NCBI GenBank assembly: GCA_026713545.1
Contig: JAPOOG010000082.1
Location: 1 to 64,000 of the forward strand
DNA from: Bryobacterales bacterium
GTDB taxonomy: Bacteria > Acidobacteriota > Terriglobia > Bryobacterales > UBA6623
Direction of reading: 5' to 3'
DNA: 64,000 nucleotides
The position numbers and the translations under genes are program-made. The notes below the pieces were generated by a model, which saw nothing but the letters and a program-made list of their open reading frames with translations, was not told the DNA's origin and did not search any database. Shown here in pieces: positions 4,699 to 22,240 of this stretch. The first letter of the stretch is position 1; every line of letters starts with the position of its first letter.

Positions 4699-4775
4699 CC
4701 CAGGCCCGCCCGCCACGTCCCACTCCACGGTGAGGCGGTAAACTTGAGACTTCATCTCCTTTGGGAAGGACTACC

Positions 4776-7607
4776 TTGAAGCGTCTTTGGTTATTGGCTA
4801 CCGCGGCCGTGCTCTGTCTTCTCGCTACGGTTTGTTCACGCGAGCCGGTCTACGAAGGCCCCTTCCATGCGCCGCCGGGATTCGTTGTCGAGCCGCTGCT
4901 GCCGGAAGGGCAAACCGAGACGCTCATCCAGTTGACCTTCGACAGCTTGGGACGGCCTGTCGTCTCCCGCGAACAGGGAAACCCGACCATCCTGTTCGAC
5001 AAGGACCATGACGGCATCTATGAGGCGGAACAGGCCTTCAGCGACAAGATCGAGATGCTGCACGGCATGTGGTTCGACGGCCGCACGCTCTACGCCATCG
5101 GCAGGGAAGTCGAGAACCAGCAAGCCGGACTGTACAAGCTCGAAGACAACAATGGGGACGACAGGGCGGATACGTTCGAGAAGCTGCACGACTTTACCGG
5201 AAGCATCGGCGAGCATGGGCCGCACGACATTCGCCGCGGGCCGGACGGGCACCTGTCGGTCATGTTGGGGAACCACGCTTACCTTCCCGAGGAACTGATC
5301 AACCCCTGGTCGCCCCTGCGGAACTACAAGGAATCGCAACTTCTTGACCGTTATATGGATGCGCGCGGGCATGCTGTCGGCATCAAGGCGCCGGGAGGGA
5401 CAGTATCGGGCCTGCGGCTCGACCGCATGCGGTACTCACTGCTTGCAGGCGGTTTCCGCAATGCGTTCAACCACGCCTACAACCGCGAAGGCGAGCTGTT
5501 TACGTTCGACAGCGACATGGAGTGGGACGTCAACATGCCGTGGTACCGCGAGGTGCGCTCGGTGCACGTCATTTCCGGCGGGGACTACGGTTGGCGCACG
5601 GGGTCGGGCAAGTTTCCGCCCTACTATCTCGACAGCCTGCCGCCGCTGCGTGACCTGGGACGAGGGTCACCGGTCGGCGTCGAGTTCTATCACCACCACG
5701 CCTATCCCGGTGAGTACTTTGACGCCTTCCTGCAGGCCGATTGGTCGCGCGGCCGGATCGTGTCGATGCGCCTGGCGCGTGATGGCGCGACGTACCGGCT
5801 GGTGGAGAATGCCACCAACTTCGTTTACGGCGAGCCGTTGAACGTGACGGACCTCGAAGTGGGTCCGGACGGCATGGTCTACTTCACCACGGGTGGCCGC
5901 GGGACGGCCGGCGGCTTCTACCGTGTCGCGTACAAGGGCCATCGAGCCAATACTGCGTGGCCGAAGACGAAGGGCGTCTGGTCCGCTATCCGCCAGCCGC
6001 AACCGCTGTCGAGTTGGGGCTGGGCGGCCGTCGAAAAGACAAGGGAAGCCCTGGGCGAGCGCTGGGACGAGGATCTACAAAGGATCGCCCTGAGTCCTTC
6101 GCATCGAGCACATGACCGCATCCAGGCCTTGATGCTCTTCCAGCAGCATGGGGCAAAAGCGCGTGCGGATTTGCTGCGGGCTCTCAGCCGGGACTCCGAT
6201 CCGCGGGTGCGGGCGGCGGCCATGTACGTTGTGGGGCAGCATGGCAGCGACCGCGCCAAGGCTATCGCCGCCGCGGGCCTGAAGGATGCCGATCCACTCG
6301 TCAAGAGGCGCGCGGCGGAGGCCGTGGTTCGGATGAGGCTGTCGCCGGAGGAGACGAGCTTCGCGCCAGTCGACGATCTGTACGCGATGCTCAGCGACGA
6401 GGACCGATGGGTGCGCTACGCAGGCCGCGTCGCTCTCGAGCGCACTCCCCGTGCCGAATGGTCGCGACGAGTGATCGAGGAAGAAGACCTCGCGGCCGCC
6501 GCGGAAGGGCTGGTCGCTCTGACCCGGACCGCGGCGCAGGAATCGGAACTGACAGACGCCGTTGATCGAGCACTGGAGCTGTTGGGGCGTGAGAATCTCT
6601 CGGCCGACGACGAGCTGCGGCTGCTGAGGGCTTTCCATCTGGCGTGTCTGGAGAGGAGCGAGGGATGCGCACCGGAGATCCGCTCGCAGGCCTCACGACT
6701 CGCGCTCTCTCGATTTCCCGCCGAAGACGAGCGGCTCAATCGCGAGTACGCCCGCACGATGGCTTACGCCGGCGACCCGCCGGCGATCCCAGCCATTTTC
6801 GACGCCATGCCCGAGGGTGATGAGAATCAGCCATTGCAAATCCACTATGTGTACTGCCTGCGGGAGATAAAACAGGGCTGGACGAGCAGCCAGAAACAGA
6901 GGCTACTTTCGTGGTTTCGCACAGCGCGCCGCTGGCGAGGCGGGGCAAGCTTCCCCGGGTTCATCAATCGGCTGTTCGATTCTTCGCTCGACTTCTTCAA
7001 TGAGCAAGAGAAGGAGATGGCCTACCGGGAGATTCCCGACTTCGCGCCGGTGGAGGACCTGGACGATGCAGGGCTCCGTCGCAGGGGAGGATACGTTCGA
7101 GCACGGGTCTTCGCCCGCCAGAAGGGATCTAGCGCACTTACTGAGCAGGAAATCTTCGACCACACGTTGCTGAGCCCGATGATCGGACGAGCCGAGGCGC
7201 AACGCGGACGGGAAATCTATGAGAAGGAATGTTCGCGCTGCCACCGGTTTGGCGACGAGGGAAAAGACTATGGACCCGACTTGACGACGCTGGCGAATCG
7301 CTTCCATCGCCGAGATACGCTCGAGGCGATCCTCTGGCCGTCGCGGATCATCTCCGACCAGTATCAGTCCTACATCATCGAGACGACGAGCAATGATATT
7401 CTCGACGGCCTGATCCTTTCAGAAGACGAGGACAAGATCACGATGATGCTGCCGGAAGAGGAGCGCCCGGTGGCGATTCCGAAAGGGCAGATTCGCAACC
7501 GGAGGGTTTCTAGTGTTTCCGCAATGCCGGAAGGCTTGCTGGACCCGTACGACCTGAACCAGATTGCCGACTTGCTGGCGTACATGCAGCTATCGCCCGC
7601 CGAATGA
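4776..7607 (+). CDS. PVC-type haem-binding beta-propeller cytochrome c lipoprotein
   Basis: A 943-residue exported protein in three parts. The N-terminal half is a propeller of the membrane-bound dehydrogenase type (PPGFVVEPLL, HGPHDIRRGPDG, GGDYGWRTG). The middle has HEAT-like alpha repeats (about residues 440-700). The C-terminal PVC-type cytochrome c domain has one CxxCH haem site (CSRCHRFGDEGKDYGPDL). The start is taken as TTG at 4776 because GGGAAGGA ends five bases upstream and translation then opens with a signal peptide ending in Cys20. The lipobox (LATVC) is imperfect. Likely a periplasmic electron-transfer dehydrogenase; substrate unknown. Nine bases separate it from ubiD. Confidence 0.87.
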   Translation: MKRLWLLATAAVLCLLATVCSREPVYEGPFHAPPGFVVEPLLPEGQTETLIQLTFDSLGRPVVSREQGNPTILFDKDHDGIYEAEQAFSDKIEMLHGMWFDGRTLYAIGREVENQQAGLYKLEDNNGDDRADTFEKLHDFTGSIGEHGPHDIRRGPDGHLSVMLGNHAYLPEELINPWSPLRNYKESQLLDRYMDARGHAVGIKAPGGTVSGLRLDRMRYSLLAGGFRNAFNHAYNREGELFTFDSDMEWDVNMPWYREVRSVHVISGGDYGWRTGSGKFPPYYLDSLPPLRDLGRGSPVGVEFYHHHAYPGEYFDAFLQADWSRGRIVSMRLARDGATYRLVENATNFVYGEPLNVTDLEVGPDGMVYFTTGGRGTAGGFYRVAYKGHRANTAWPKTKGVWSAIRQPQPLSSWGWAAVEKTREALGERWDEDLQRIALSPSHRAHDRIQALMLFQQHGAKARADLLRALSRDSDPRVRAAAMYVVGQHGSDRAKAIAAAGLKDADPLVKRRAAEAVVRMRLSPEETSFAPVDDLYAMLSDEDRWVRYAGRVALERTPRAEWSRRVIEEEDLAAAAEGLVALTRTAAQESELTDAVDRALELLGRENLSADDELRLLRAFHLACLERSEGCAPEIRSQASRLALSRFPAEDERLNREYARTMAYAGDPPAIPAIFDAMPEGDENQPLQIHYVYCLREIKQGWTSSQKQRLLSWFRTARRWRGGASFPGFINRLFDSSLDFFNEQEKEMAYREIPDFAPVEDLDDAGLRRRGGYVRARVFARQKGSSALTEQEIFDHTLLSPMIGRAEAQRGREIYEKECSRCHRFGDEGKDYGPDLTTLANRFHRRDTLEAILWPSRIISDQYQSYIIETTSNDILDGLILSEDEDKITMMLPEEERPVAIPKGQIRNRRVSSVSAMPEGLLDPYDLNQIADLLAYMQLSPAE

Positions 7608-9165: not shown

Positions 9166-10248
9166 ATGAGCCAAGTCAGACAGCAGTTCTCATGGAAGTT
9201 TTTCGGCGCGATCGTGGCCATCGGCGTGCTGCTCGCCTGGGTATCGAGATTCTGCGAACCTGCACAGGCGCAAAACGTCAGAACCGGACCGGCGATCGGC
9301 GAGAGCATCCCTGCCTTTTCGGTCACCGATCACACCGGAAAAACCCGGACGTTCGAATCGTTGCGCGGACCCAACGGCCTGCTGCTCCTGTTCCACCGCT
9401 CGGCGGATTGGTGACCGTTCTGCAAAGGGCAACTGGTCGAGTTGGCCGAGCAGAAAGAGGAGTTCGAATTGAAGGGGTTGAACGTCGCCGCCGTGAGCTA
9501 CGACTCGCCGGCCGTACTCAAGCACTTTGCCGACCGCGCTGGAGTCGACTATCCCTTGCTGGCGGACACCGATTCGGAATTGATCCGGGCTTTCGGCATC
9601 CTTAACGACAGGATCCCGGCGGACCATCGTTTCTACGGAATCCCGAACCCCGGATACTACGTCATCGACGAGAACGGCATTGTTCAATCGAAGTACTTCG
9701 AAGAACGCTACCAGGACCGTTTCACGTCGGCGAGCATCCTCGTCCGTGAGTTCGATGACCCCGGCGAGGTGCAGGGAGAAGCTGAAACGCCGCACCTGCG
9801 GGCGAGTTGGTCGGCGAGCAACCACGAAGTTCTGGGCGGGAACCGGGTCTCGCTCATCTTGCAGGTTGCGATGAAGCCCAAGATGCACGTATACGCCCCG
9901 GATGTTACGGGTTATCTACCCGTAGACTGGAAAATGACGTCCTCGGCCGGCTGGCGGGACTTGCCGGCCGAGTTCCCCGAATCCAAACTGCTGCACCTGC
10001 CGGCGATCGACGAGATCGTGCCCGTCTATGAGGGCCGGTTTCGAGTCGTTCGCGATCTTGAAGTCGGCGCAAACAAACAGCTTCGACCTCTCGTAAGCGC
10101 AGACGGAACGATCGCCGTCGAAGGCGTGTTTCACTACCAGGCCTGCGACGACAAGGTCTGCTACCTGCCGCAGCAGATCCCTCTGAAGTGGACCTTTGGC
10201 GTGAAGGCCTACGACCGTCAACGGGCTCCTGAAAGCCTGCGCCGATAG
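9166..10248 (+). CDS. Redoxin (UxxC) fused to DsbD-alpha-like domain; probable selenoprotein
   Basis: One reading frame of 360 residues interrupted by a single TGA at 9412-9414. A membrane or signal helix (about 10-30) precedes an AhpC/TSA-type redoxin domain, then a C-terminal DsbD-alpha-like domain (residues about 215-345) with its cysteine pair C327/C332 (YQACDDKVCYLP). Codon 83 is TGA within FHRSADW-TGA-PFCKGQL. Relatives have Cys here (SADWCPFC), so the TGA replaces a catalytic cysteine, with Cys86 as partner. Homology continues unbroken after it, and a SECIS-like hairpin follows. Likely role: periplasmic thiol redox or peroxide handling. The alternative is a recent nonsense mutation of TGC or TGT. 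Confidence 0.8.
9412..9455 (+). promoter_or_regulatory. Candidate bacterial SECIS element
   Basis: Directly after the in-frame TGA the RNA can fold in two stacked stems. TTCTGC at 9418-9423 pairs with GCAGAA at 9450-9455. GGCAACT at 9428-9434 pairs with AGTTG(G)CC at 9440-9447, with one bulged G. The apical loop is GGTCG at 9435-9439, beginning 21 bases after the TGA. The E. coli fdhF element has a GGUCU loop at nearly the same distance, as I recall it. GGU in the loop is the usual SelB contact. Pairing was done by eye. Confidence 0.7.
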
Positions 10249-18588: not shown

Positions 18589-19461
18589 GTGCAGTGGTTT
18601 GAGTATGCTCGACCCGGAACGGTCGATGAGGCAGTACGACTGCTTTCCGAACACGGTGAGAAGGCGTGTGTTCTCGCCGGCGGAACCGACATTCTGGTGC
18701 AGCTACGCGGCGGTTTTCGAGCCGCAGAGTGGGTGATCGACGTCAAGGAAATCCCTGCGTTGGATGAAATCGCCTGGGATGAGGCGTCAGGACTGACGAT
18801 CGGAGCAGCGGTTCCGTGCTACCGCATCTACGAGGACGAGGACGTCAAGAAGCTCTACCCAGGACTCATCGATGTCGCGTCGTTGATCGGCGGGACACAG
18901 ATCCAAGGCCGAGCCTCACTGGGCGGCAATCTTTGCAATGCGGCTCCCAGCGCTGATGCCGTGCCGATCATGATCGCGCTGGAAGCGAGTTGCCGCATCG
19001 CCGGTACGAACGGCGAGAGAACGGTCGCCGTGGAGGACTTCTGCACCGCCCCGGGCAAGAATGTCCTCGCTGCGGGCGAGTTGCTCGTTTCCCTGCATTT
19101 CCCCGCGCCGAAAGCGAATTCCGGTGCTCACTACCTACGGTTCATCCCCCGCAACGAGATGGACATCGCCGTCGCGGGAGCCGGCGTTTCGGTCGTGCTC
19201 GACAACGGGAACTTCACTTCGGCGCGAGTCGCCCTGGCGTCGGTCGCGCCGACATCGCTGTTCGTCAAACAGGCCGGTGACGCACTGGCAGGACAACCAG
19301 TAAGCGACGAGAGCATCCAACGAGCCGCCGATATCGCGAAGCAAGCGGCCAAGCCGATCGACGACATGAGAGGCACCGTGCGGTACCGCAAGCACCTCTG
19401 TGAAGTCTTGACGCGGCGCGCCTTGCATGTTGCGGTTGAGCGAGCCAGGAGGAACAACTGA
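18589..19461 (+). CDS. Molybdenum hydroxylase FAD subunit (CoxM-like)
   Basis: A 290-residue FAD-binding subunit of the xanthine dehydrogenase family. The flavin loops are AGGTDILVQLRGG near residue 30 and TIGAAVPC, followed by IGGTQIQGRASLGGNLCNAAPSAD. The C-terminal CO-dehydrogenase flavoprotein domain ends with DMRGTVRYRKHLCEVLTRRA. It passes electrons from the iron-sulfur subunit to its acceptor. The start is GTG at 18589 with GAGGAG three bases upstream. The stop overlaps the next start by one base, as expected for a heterotrimer made together. Confidence 0.93.
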   Translation: MQWFEYARPGTVDEAVRLLSEHGEKACVLAGGTDILVQLRGGFRAAEWVIDVKEIPALDEIAWDEASGLTIGAAVPCYRIYEDEDVKKLYPGLIDVASLIGGTQIQGRASLGGNLCNAAPSADAVPIMIALEASCRIAGTNGERTVAVEDFCTAPGKNVLAAGELLVSLHFPAPKANSGAHYLRFIPRNEMDIAVAGAGVSVVLDNGNFTSARVALASVAPTSLFVKQAGDALAGQPVSDESIQRAADIAKQAAKPIDDMRGTVRYRKHLCEVLTRRALHVAVERARRNN

Positions 19462-19943
19462 TGCCGCGGAGAGTTCACGTTCAAACAACGATCAACGGCG
19501 AAGAGATCGACTTCCTTTGCGAAGCTCGTCAGAGCCTGCTGGAAGTGCTGCGCGACGTGCTCGGGTTGACCGGCACCAAAGAAGGCTGCAATGACGGAAA
19601 CTGCGGAGCGTGCACGGTGATTTTCGACGGGCGGATCGTAACGGCTTGTCTCGTACTTGCCGTCGAGGCGGAAGGTAAGCAGATCACAACGGTCGAAGGC
19701 ATCGCCGTGGGCCGAGAACTGCACTCCATTCAACAATGCTTCCTCGAAGGCGCGGCATTACAGTGCGGTATCTGCACTCCGGGCTTCATCGTCGCAGCGA
19801 AAGCGTTGCTCGATCAGGACAACAACCCCTCGGAAGACAAGATCCGGCTTTGGCTGGCAAACAACCTGTGCCGTTGTACGGGGTACGACAAGATCGTGCG
19901 GTCGGTGCAGGCCGCCGCCGAGAGAATGCAGGAGGTGAGATGA
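19461..19943 (+). CDS. Molybdenum hydroxylase 2Fe-2S subunit (CoxS-like)
   Basis: A 160-residue subunit with two 2Fe-2S clusters. The plant-ferredoxin-type cluster uses C43, C48, C51 and C63 (EGCNDGNCGACTV). The second, in the helical domain, uses QCGICTPGF and NLCRCTGY. It links the molybdenum centre to the FAD subunit. It overlaps the preceding gene by one base and the following gene by four (ATGA), so translation of the three subunits is coupled. Confidence 0.95.
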   Translation: MPRRVHVQTTINGEEIDFLCEARQSLLEVLRDVLGLTGTKEGCNDGNCGACTVIFDGRIVTACLVLAVEAEGKQITTVEGIAVGRELHSIQQCFLEGAALQCGICTPGFIVAAKALLDQDNNPSEDKIRLWLANNLCRCTGYDKIVRSVQAAAERMQEVR

Positions 19944-22240
19944 GCGAGCAAAGCTATGAACCCAACATGGTCCTTTCGACCAAGGAGTTCGACGTCGTCG
20001 GGAAGCGTCCGTTGCGGCACGACGGAGTGGACAAGGTCACCGGGCGTGCGATCTATGGCGCCGACGTCAGCATGGCGGGCCTGATGCACGGCGCCGTGCT
20101 GCGCAGTCCTCACGCTCACGCCCGCATCAAGTCGATTGATACCAGCAAGGCCGAAGCCCATCCCGAAGTGCGCGCGGTGGTCACGTCGACGGACTTTGTG
20201 GACCCCGGCGACAAGGCGGTCGATCTCGGTGAGGGACTGACGCGGCTTTCCTACATCCGCAACAACGTGCTGGCCCTCGACAAGGTTCTCTATCGCGGCC
20301 ACGCGGTGGCGGCGGTAGCGGCGGCCAGCCTGCATGACGCGCTCGAGGCGCTGAAGCTCATCGAGGTGGAATACGACCTCCTGCCACCGGTTCTCACGGC
20401 GCCTGATGCGATGAAAGAGGACGCGCCGTTGCTGCACGAGAATCTTCGCATGACGGAGTTCGGCAGGCCGACGGACAAGGTAAGCAACGTTTCGGACCAT
20501 TTCCGCCATGAGAAAGGCGACATCGAACAAGGCTTCGCTGAAGCCGATCTCATCGTCGAGCGTGAATTCGATACGTCTACGGTTCACCAGGGATACATCG
20601 AGCCCCACAACACGACTGCTCTTTGGAACAACGACGACCGTATCCACATCTGGACCAGCACGCAAGGCCCCTTCACGATTCGCGACACGACGGCGGCCAT
20701 TCTCGACAAGCCGGTCTCGCAGGTCCGGGTGACACCAACGGAAATCGGCGGCGGGTTCGGCGGCAAGATCCCGGTGTACATCGATCCTGTCGCGGCGCTG
20801 CTGTCGAATAAGAGCGGGCACCCGGTAAAGATCGTGATGAGCCGTGCGGAGGTGCTGGAAGGGACCGGGCCGACGCCGGGCTCGCATTTGAAGATCAAGA
20901 TGGGCGTCAAGAGCGACGGCACCATGATGGCGGCGCAGGCATGGCTGGCTTACGAGGCGGGCGCCTATCCGGGCGCGATGGTCGTCCCCGGGGGCATGTG
21001 CGTCTTCGCGGCTTACGACATCCCGAACGTCACGATTGACGGCTACGACGTTGTCGTCAACAAGCCCAGCACCGCCGCTTACCGTGCGCCCGGCGCTACG
21101 AATGCGGCGTTTGCGACGGAGAGCGTTGTCAACGAAATCGCCGAGAAGCTCGGCATCGATCCCCTTGATCTGCGGCTGAAGAACGCCTCGAAAGAGGGGA
21201 CTCGCCGCGCCGACGGACCGAAGTTTCCACGGATCGGCTGCCTCGAAGTGATCGAGGCCATGAAGAACCACCCGCACTACAGCGCGCCGCTCGAGGGGCC
21301 AAACCGCGGCCGGGGCGTCGCGGTCGGGTTCTGGTTCAACGCCGGGCTGCCCTCGGCCTGCAATATCGCTGTCAACCCCGATGGGACGATCACGCTGGTT
21401 GAAGGCTCCCCCGATATCGGCGGCACGCGAACGTCCGTTGCGATGCAGGCTGCGGAAGTGCTCGGTCTGCCCGCCGAGAAGGTTAGCCCCAGTGTCGTCG
21501 ATACCGACTCTGTCGGCTTTACGGCCGTTACCGGAGGCAGCCGCGTTACGTTCTCAACGGGGCTGGCGGCCATCGAGGCGGCCCGGGACGTGCGCGAGCA
21601 GATGATCCAACGCGCGGCCAAGATCTGGGGCGTGGAGAGCGACGGTGTCGAGTTCAGGAAGGGTGTTTTCCACTTGAAGAACGGAACGGAAAATCGTATG
21701 ACGTTCTCGGAACTTGCTGCGCAGATTGCGACAACCGGCGACCCGATCGTCGGGCGTGCGGGCGTGAACCCACCGGGTGTGGGCGGTTCATTCTCTGGAA
21801 ACATCGTCGACGTTGAAGTAGACCCGGAAACCGGCAAGGTCACGATCCTGCGTTTCACGGCTTTCCAGGATGCCGGCAAGGCGATTCATCCCAGCTATGT
21901 CGAAGGCCAGATGCAGGGCGGCAGCGTGCAGGGCATCGGTTGGGCGCTCAACGAGGAGTATTTCATGAACGCCGAAGGCAAGATGATGAACTCGAGCCTG
22001 CTCGACTACCGCATGCCGACCAGCCTCGACTTGCCCATGATAGACACCGTCATCATCGAGGTGGCCAACCCCGGCCATCCTTTCGGTGCGCGCGGCGTGG
22101 GTGAAGCGAATATCGTCCCACCGCCGGCAGCCCTGGCGAATGCGATCAACAACGCCGTGGGCGTCGCCATGAACCGCTTGCCGATGAACCCCGTCGCCGT
22201 GATGGGAGCAATCTGGGAAAAGAACGGCGCAACCGATTGA
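19940..22240 (+). CDS. Molybdenum hydroxylase large (molybdopterin-binding) subunit
   Basis: A 766-residue catalytic subunit of the xanthine dehydrogenase family. It carries the cofactor loop GGGFGGK, the segment AYRAPGATNAAFATE and, near the C terminus, the conserved active-site region FGARGVGEANIVPPPAALANA, whose Glu is the catalytic base. The AYRAPGA loop differs from the AYRCSFR loop of true CO dehydrogenase, so an aldehyde, purine or aromatic substrate is more likely; which one cannot be told. The start at 19940 has GGAGGTGAG directly upstream. A MoaD-like gene follows after six bases. Confidence 0.93.
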   Translation: MSEQSYEPNMVLSTKEFDVVGKRPLRHDGVDKVTGRAIYGADVSMAGLMHGAVLRSPHAHARIKSIDTSKAEAHPEVRAVVTSTDFVDPGDKAVDLGEGLTRLSYIRNNVLALDKVLYRGHAVAAVAAASLHDALEALKLIEVEYDLLPPVLTAPDAMKEDAPLLHENLRMTEFGRPTDKVSNVSDHFRHEKGDIEQGFAEADLIVEREFDTSTVHQGYIEPHNTTALWNNDDRIHIWTSTQGPFTIRDTTAAILDKPVSQVRVTPTEIGGGFGGKIPVYIDPVAALLSNKSGHPVKIVMSRAEVLEGTGPTPGSHLKIKMGVKSDGTMMAAQAWLAYEAGAYPGAMVVPGGMCVFAAYDIPNVTIDGYDVVVNKPSTAAYRAPGATNAAFATESVVNEIAEKLGIDPLDLRLKNASKEGTRRADGPKFPRIGCLEVIEAMKNHPHYSAPLEGPNRGRGVAVGFWFNAGLPSACNIAVNPDGTITLVEGSPDIGGTRTSVAMQAAEVLGLPAEKVSPSVVDTDSVGFTAVTGGSRVTFSTGLAAIEAARDVREQMIQRAAKIWGVESDGVEFRKGVFHLKNGTENRMTFSELAAQIATTGDPIVGRAGVNPPGVGGSFSGNIVDVEVDPETGKVTILRFTAFQDAGKAIHPSYVEGQMQGGSVQGIGWALNEEYFMNAEGKMMNSSLLDYRMPTSLDLPMIDTVIIEVANPGHPFGARGVGEANIVPPPAALANAINNAVGVAMNRLPMNPVAVMGAIWEKNGATD

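Follow-up and report, generated by a model that had tools for sequence, protein, structure and literature searches.

The analysed window, a 64,000-nt stretch of contig JAPOOG010000082.1 from a Bryobacterales genome of the phylum Acidobacteriota, carries on its plus strand a frame (9166–10248) that is interrupted by a single internal stop, TGA at 9412–9414 (codon 83), after which 277 residues follow up to the TAG. Re-reading the frame bore out the original prediction that it is open save for this one TGA, that the TGA takes the place of the first Cys of the family motif (RSADW[U/C]PxC, where it is the first Cys of CxxC; the window protein itself reads SADW-U-PFC) and that family sequence, homologous in the relatives, continues behind it. 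The encoded fusion protein was modelled by AlphaFold2 with a pLDDT of 90.8 and a pTM of 0.84 (Table 1). Reading of its N-terminal helix (9166–9273) placed a putative signal peptide cleavage point near AQA-Q, and the protein is probably exported to the periplasm; the gene product is very probably a selenium-containing secreted redox protein, which standard gene finding would cut at residue 82.

Table 1. Features of the predicted selenoprotein gene, in window positions.
Feature	Position	Strand	Details
Predicted selenoprotein gene	9166–10248	+	360 aa followed by a TAG stop; signal peptide, then UxxC redoxin and DsbD-alpha domains
N-terminal hydrophobic helix, residues 4–29; signal peptide or anchor	9166–9273	+	sequence MSQVRQQFSWKFFGAIVAIGVLLAWVSRFCEPAQAQ; helix in model
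AhpC/TSA (Prx-like) domain, residues 44–175	9295–9690	+	Pfam PF00578, E 2.9e-29
TGA codon 83, predicted selenocysteine, first position of UPFC	9412–9414	+	TGA at this column in 25/30 relatives
Putative SECIS hairpin	9418–9455	+	conserved upper stem 9430–9434/9440–9444; apical loop GGUCG 9435–9439
Cys86, second residue of UxxC pair	9421–9423	+	invariant
C-terminal region folded alone, DsbD-alpha domain	9763–10245	+	PF11412 at residues 217–337
Redox pair C327/C332 in YQACDDKVC (codons 327–332)	10144–10161	+	invariant

Relatives were sought in 396 genomes of the phylum Acidobacteriota, 75 of which gave a match at E ≤1e-15. Alignment of close homologues, which the original prediction had named as a check, revealed a clear alternation at the column of residue 83, with TGA in 25 and Cys in 5 of the 30 full-length Acidobacteriota relatives (window included). 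The family motif is RSADW[U/C]PYCKxQL, with RSTDWU in L050 and L051, and the 28 aligned homologues share as invariant residues R78, S79, A80, W82, U/C83, C86, Q89 and L90 as well as Y324, Q325, C327 and C332. One relative (L043) contains two in-frame TGAs, the Sec site and the natural stop. Within flanks of 1.5–4 kb, neither the upstream UbiD gene, the downstream FtsX-like permease gene nor the gene at 4761–7607 recurs beside the relatives.

The genome to which the window belongs (5.6 Mb, 99% complete) encodes SelA (456.6 bits), full-length SelB (358 bits), SelD (324 bits) and tRNA-Sec (79 bits, anticodon tca), so that all four components which the original prediction had proposed to look for (selA, selB, selD and tRNA-Sec) were recovered. 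SelA was present in 21 of the 24 other TGA-bearing genomes versus 6 of 25 genomes without the TGA form (Fisher p ~1e-5, with kinship of the genomes not corrected for); the latter set comprised 5 Cys-only genomes (SelA in 2) and 20 genomes of the same order or class without a relative (SelA in 4). The three TGA-bearing genomes that lacked a SelA match are all fragmented drafts, and tRNA-Sec was found in all three and SelB in two. In the window's own order, SelA is absent from both sampled genomes, one of which has a relative, in the Cys form.

The predicted hairpin, with a GGUCG loop starting 21 bases past the TGA, was located as described: the loop at 9435–9439 opens on base 21 downstream of the TGA, 20 nt from the UGA. 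Published rules for bacterial SECIS elements specify a loop of 3–9 nt, a stem of 4–16 bp, a G in the first two loop positions, a distance of 16–37 nt from the UGA and an MFE of ≤ −7.5 (PMC13188914), and the window hairpin agrees with each of these rules (5-nt loop, G first, 20 nt, −19 kcal/mol). The fold of 9405–9460, with an MFE of −19 kcal/mol, lies at z = −1.9 relative to dinucleotide shuffles, which is modest for one sequence, and Rfam contains no SECIS family that would match; the signal beyond chance rests on comparison across relatives, not on the single-sequence fold. The QLVEL codons of each of the 23 aligned TGA-bearing relatives fold into a stem of six pairs capped by a loop of five bases, in most cases GGTCG or CGTGG; the window hairpin is missing the outermost of these six family pairs and has an extra outer stem (9418–9423/9450–9455). 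Across the 23 relatives, 137 of 138 stem pairs are formed, versus 109.3 ± 4.1 pairs and a maximum of 123 in 2000 draws of synonymous codons according to each gene's own usage. In 22 of the 23 rows, pairing reaches 99.2%, two pairs differ at both partners (GC/CG and GC/AU), and the covariation score of 0.160 was reached by none of 500 shuffles, slid versions all scoring far lower. The Cys forms of the same protein are a fair control: 21 Acidobacteriota Cys relatives form 4.4 of the six pairs versus 5.96 in the Sec forms (Mann–Whitney p 2e-8, a value inflated by relatedness). The hairpin is thus conserved in the TGA-bearing relatives, a point that the original prediction had put up for checking, with compensatory changes at two pairs.

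Together, these comparative data very strongly support the reading, which we hold to be nearly certain, that the UGA at 9412–9414 would be decoded as selenocysteine through tRNA-Sec, SelB and the downstream SECIS hairpin. The window does use TGA as a normal stop (8 of 27 long high-GC3 frames), as a pseudogene or a sequencing error at codon 83 would have it, but the identical TGA in 25 separate genomes, the conserved protein beyond it, the complete Sec machinery and a hairpin kept with compensatory changes make either explanation very improbable. Ordinary read-through or a code change to Trp, for which the open frame alone speaks, is scarcely credible in a genome with tRNA-Sec and SelA/B/D, at a column that holds Cys and never Trp in the relatives and in a window where long frames are still terminated by TGA. 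On this comparative evidence we rejected a pseudogene, a sequencing error and a change of code alike.

The redoxin domain has AhpE, Bcp and AhpC as its nearest solved folds (Z ~18), and a PF00578 domain carrying UxxC places it among the Prx-like thiol:disulfide oxidoreductases. Alignment with AhpE equates C86 with the peroxidatic Cys, U83 with the Thr of PxxxTxxC and Pro162 with the catalytic Arg (AhpE R116). The canonical peroxiredoxin PxxxTxxC site is therefore absent, the corresponding stretch being S79-A-D-W-U83-x-x-C86 with Thr replaced by Sec or Cys, and the canonical catalytic Arg is absent as well, its position being occupied by Pro in 27 of 28 homologues; we take this Pro to be the equivalent of the cis-Pro of thioredoxins and TlpA/ResA. 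Because both canonical catalytic residues are replaced (Thr by Sec, Arg by Pro), the site reads as a thioredoxin/TlpA-type UxxC on a Prx-like scaffold. The match to the model for SelL-related redox proteins (NF040769) was 51.2 bits, below its curated cut-off of 120 bits. The original description of a UxxC Prx-like redoxin thus stands as regards PF00578 and the scaffold, with the qualification that the catalytic residues of canonical peroxiredoxins are absent. Canonical peroxiredoxins (AhpE, Bcp/PrxQ and AhpC, including Sec forms with TxxU) share the fold with the window domain, whereas its Sec lies at the Thr position of TxxC and not at the peroxidatic position.

The domain might nevertheless be a true envelope peroxidase with Sec as the peroxide-reactive residue, an explanation that we regard as possible though rather unlikely and that overlaps with our preferred one, in which the substrate is left open. 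Membership of the AhpC/TSA family and the fold speak for it, as does an envelope peroxiredoxin in Caulobacter that receives electrons from ScsB (PMC5403849); replacement of both the PxxxTxxC motif and the catalytic Arg, by U83 and Pro162, speaks against it.

Fold searches with the whole-protein model returned only redoxins, and the C-terminal domain was therefore folded separately (pLDDT 91.3). Its eleven best PDB matches are all ScsB/DsbD alpha domains (Z 10.3–12.7; next fold 9.0), headed by the ScsB N-terminal domain (Z 12.7), and the close folds include the alpha-domain complexes 1vrs (with DsbD-gamma), 1z5y and 1jzd (with DsbC); the partner in 1z5y is presumably CcmG, in a disulfide-linked nDsbD–CcmG complex. 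PF11412 (now named DsbD_N) matches residues 217–337 at E 1.6e-7 to 8.3e-7 (31.8 bits versus a curated cut-off of 25 bits) and was found in 27 of 28 homologues. Pfam and fold matches alike thus uphold the DsbD-alpha-like assignment made originally. Relative to DsbD-alpha and the ScsB N-terminal domain (1jpe, 1vrs, 1z5y, 6c29), the window domain shares the immunoglobulin-like fold and a Cys pair, but it is only 12–15% identical and is joined to a redoxin instead of the DsbD membrane domain. According to Pfam, the DsbD_TM membrane domain is absent from the fusion protein, and the genome's sole DsbD_TM match lies elsewhere, in its one complete DsbD, which combines PF11412 and PF02683 with a thioredoxin domain; the CDDRVC pair of this DsbD is similar to that of the window domain and has the same CX4C spacing. 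Elsewhere in the phylum, frames of ~190–260 aa (for example G355:C19, G107:C41, G285:C120 and G373:C1) match only query residues ~204–358 and possibly encode stand-alone alpha-domain proteins.

The original prediction knew of no described example of a fusion to DsbD-alpha. That statement no longer holds: a protein in which Pfam11412 is joined to a Prx-like U/CxxC domain was reported in 2021 as a new fusion form in Global Ocean Sampling data (PMC9402790). In both cases a U/CxxC Prx-like domain and PF11412, with additional conserved Cys, lie in one chain, and on the published description we assign the window protein to the same kind by architecture. As far as the portion of that report available to us goes, the marine fusion comes from metagenomes and is presented without named hosts, SECIS elements or mechanism, whereas the window gene is set in Acidobacteriota genomes with SECIS covariation, decoding machinery and a Sec/Cys history. 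To that description the present analysis contributes a host phylum, evidence for the SECIS element, a history of Sec and Cys at the site and a reading of the active site, and a fusion briefly mentioned from marine metagenomes is now placed in many genomes of a soil-rich phylum. The 2026 catalogue tabulates UxxC selenoproteins of the Prx-like thiol:disulfide oxidoreductase and Redoxin families (PF00578/PF08534), which resemble the window protein in having an AhpC/TSA-Redoxin domain with UxxC; the entry gives domain and motif only, with no second domain named, and a redoxin/DsbD-alpha fusion is absent under its own name (PMC13188914). The catalogue's TsoB, a Rhodanese/DsbD fusion-like selenoprotein (NF045694), likewise has a DsbD-like part, but it combines this with a rhodanese domain instead of a redoxin and has a UxxxxU motif (PMC13188914).

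We suggest, as the probable explanation on the whole, that the protein is a two-domain envelope selenol/thiol oxidoreductase in which Sec83 is re-reduced in cis by the alpha domain. Sec83 would attack an oxidant or an oxidised substrate, be it peroxide, sulfenic acid or disulfide, and Cys86 would resolve the intermediate as a selenenylsulfide. This bond would be re-reduced by C327/C332 of the fused alpha domain, which would in turn be recharged by the genome's membrane DsbD. Electron transfer from DsbD-alpha to CcmG/TlpA is known, and the scheme would be its single-chain version. It is plausible that electrons pass from the alpha domain to the Sec site, and such a relay is supported by the joint conservation of UxxC and CX4C in 28 of 28 aligned fused homologues. 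The alpha-domain complexes named above and the ScsB–TlpA–PprX chain of Caulobacter (PMC5403849) are precedents for it. On the other side, the alpha domain that the host DsbD carries itself leaves no obvious need for another to supply electrons, and no gene neighbourhood is conserved beside the relatives.

The alpha domain could instead be something other than the reductant of the Sec site: it might act in trans, it might serve in docking or in recognising the substrate, or both domains might be separate shuttles for envelope proteins. Alphaproteobacteria and Opitutae have Cys relatives (159–206 aa) that consist of the redoxin domain with no alpha domain attached, so the redoxin is able to work alone, and other small frames of the phylum contain the stand-alone alpha-domain matches described above. 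Set against these observations are the retention of both redox pairs together in 28 of 28 fused homologues and the presence, among the closest folds, of alpha domains crystallised disulfide-linked to thioredoxin-type partners (1vrs, 1z5y, 1jzd), and we judge this alternative somewhat improbable. The more specific proposal within the cis-reduction scheme, that DsbD-alpha is a dedicated in-chain reductant passing cytoplasmic electrons from the DsbD membrane domain through the fused alpha domain to Sec83, would make the protein a self-reducing selenoenzyme; we give this an even chance. We are not aware of a test on any Sec site that carries its own DsbD-alpha reductant, and the protein offers a test case for the electron supply of an envelope selenoprotein. 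If the proposal is true, one chain would replace an envelope pathway of the ScsB–TlpA–PprX type, the electron chain in Caulobacter that leads from ScsB through TlpA to the envelope peroxiredoxin PprX (PMC5403849).

The maximum-likelihood tree, built from 44 fused proteins with the Sec/Cys site masked, implied at least 6 changes between Sec and Cys, most likely 9. On this tree the window protein groups with a Sec form of a different family (L035; support 100/98). The natural Sec/Cys pairs provide a route to asking what Sec gains over Cys. Two genomes (L042 in G394 and L037 in G385) retain SelA, SelB and tRNA-Sec with the gene in its Cys form, so Sec can be lost here without loss of the machinery. 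Many genomes of a single genus contain a subfamily on a long branch that reads RSAVWU and is extended at the N-terminus (L062 in G184 and similar; family f49), and these genomes often have a further TGA-bearing copy. The scan of contigs beyond the phylum read TGA as Cys and was able to return Cys forms only; among plasmids, no full-length relative was found. One protein from a MAG labelled Bifidobacterium breve (L084) is nested among the Acidobacteriota Cys forms, and this MAG is probably mislabelled or contaminated.

The genome of the window also holds a second selenoprotein candidate of ~168 aa (L022:1435–1938; G000:C55:4936–5316, minus strand), which consists of a signal peptide and a peroxiredoxin with FTGGU (TxxU type) and belongs to an already known selenoprotein family. 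Within the window, three neighbouring plus-strand genes at 18589–22240 resemble, on by-eye reading, the FAD, 2Fe-2S and large subunits of a molybdenum hydroxylase of the CO-dehydrogenase/xanthine-dehydrogenase type.
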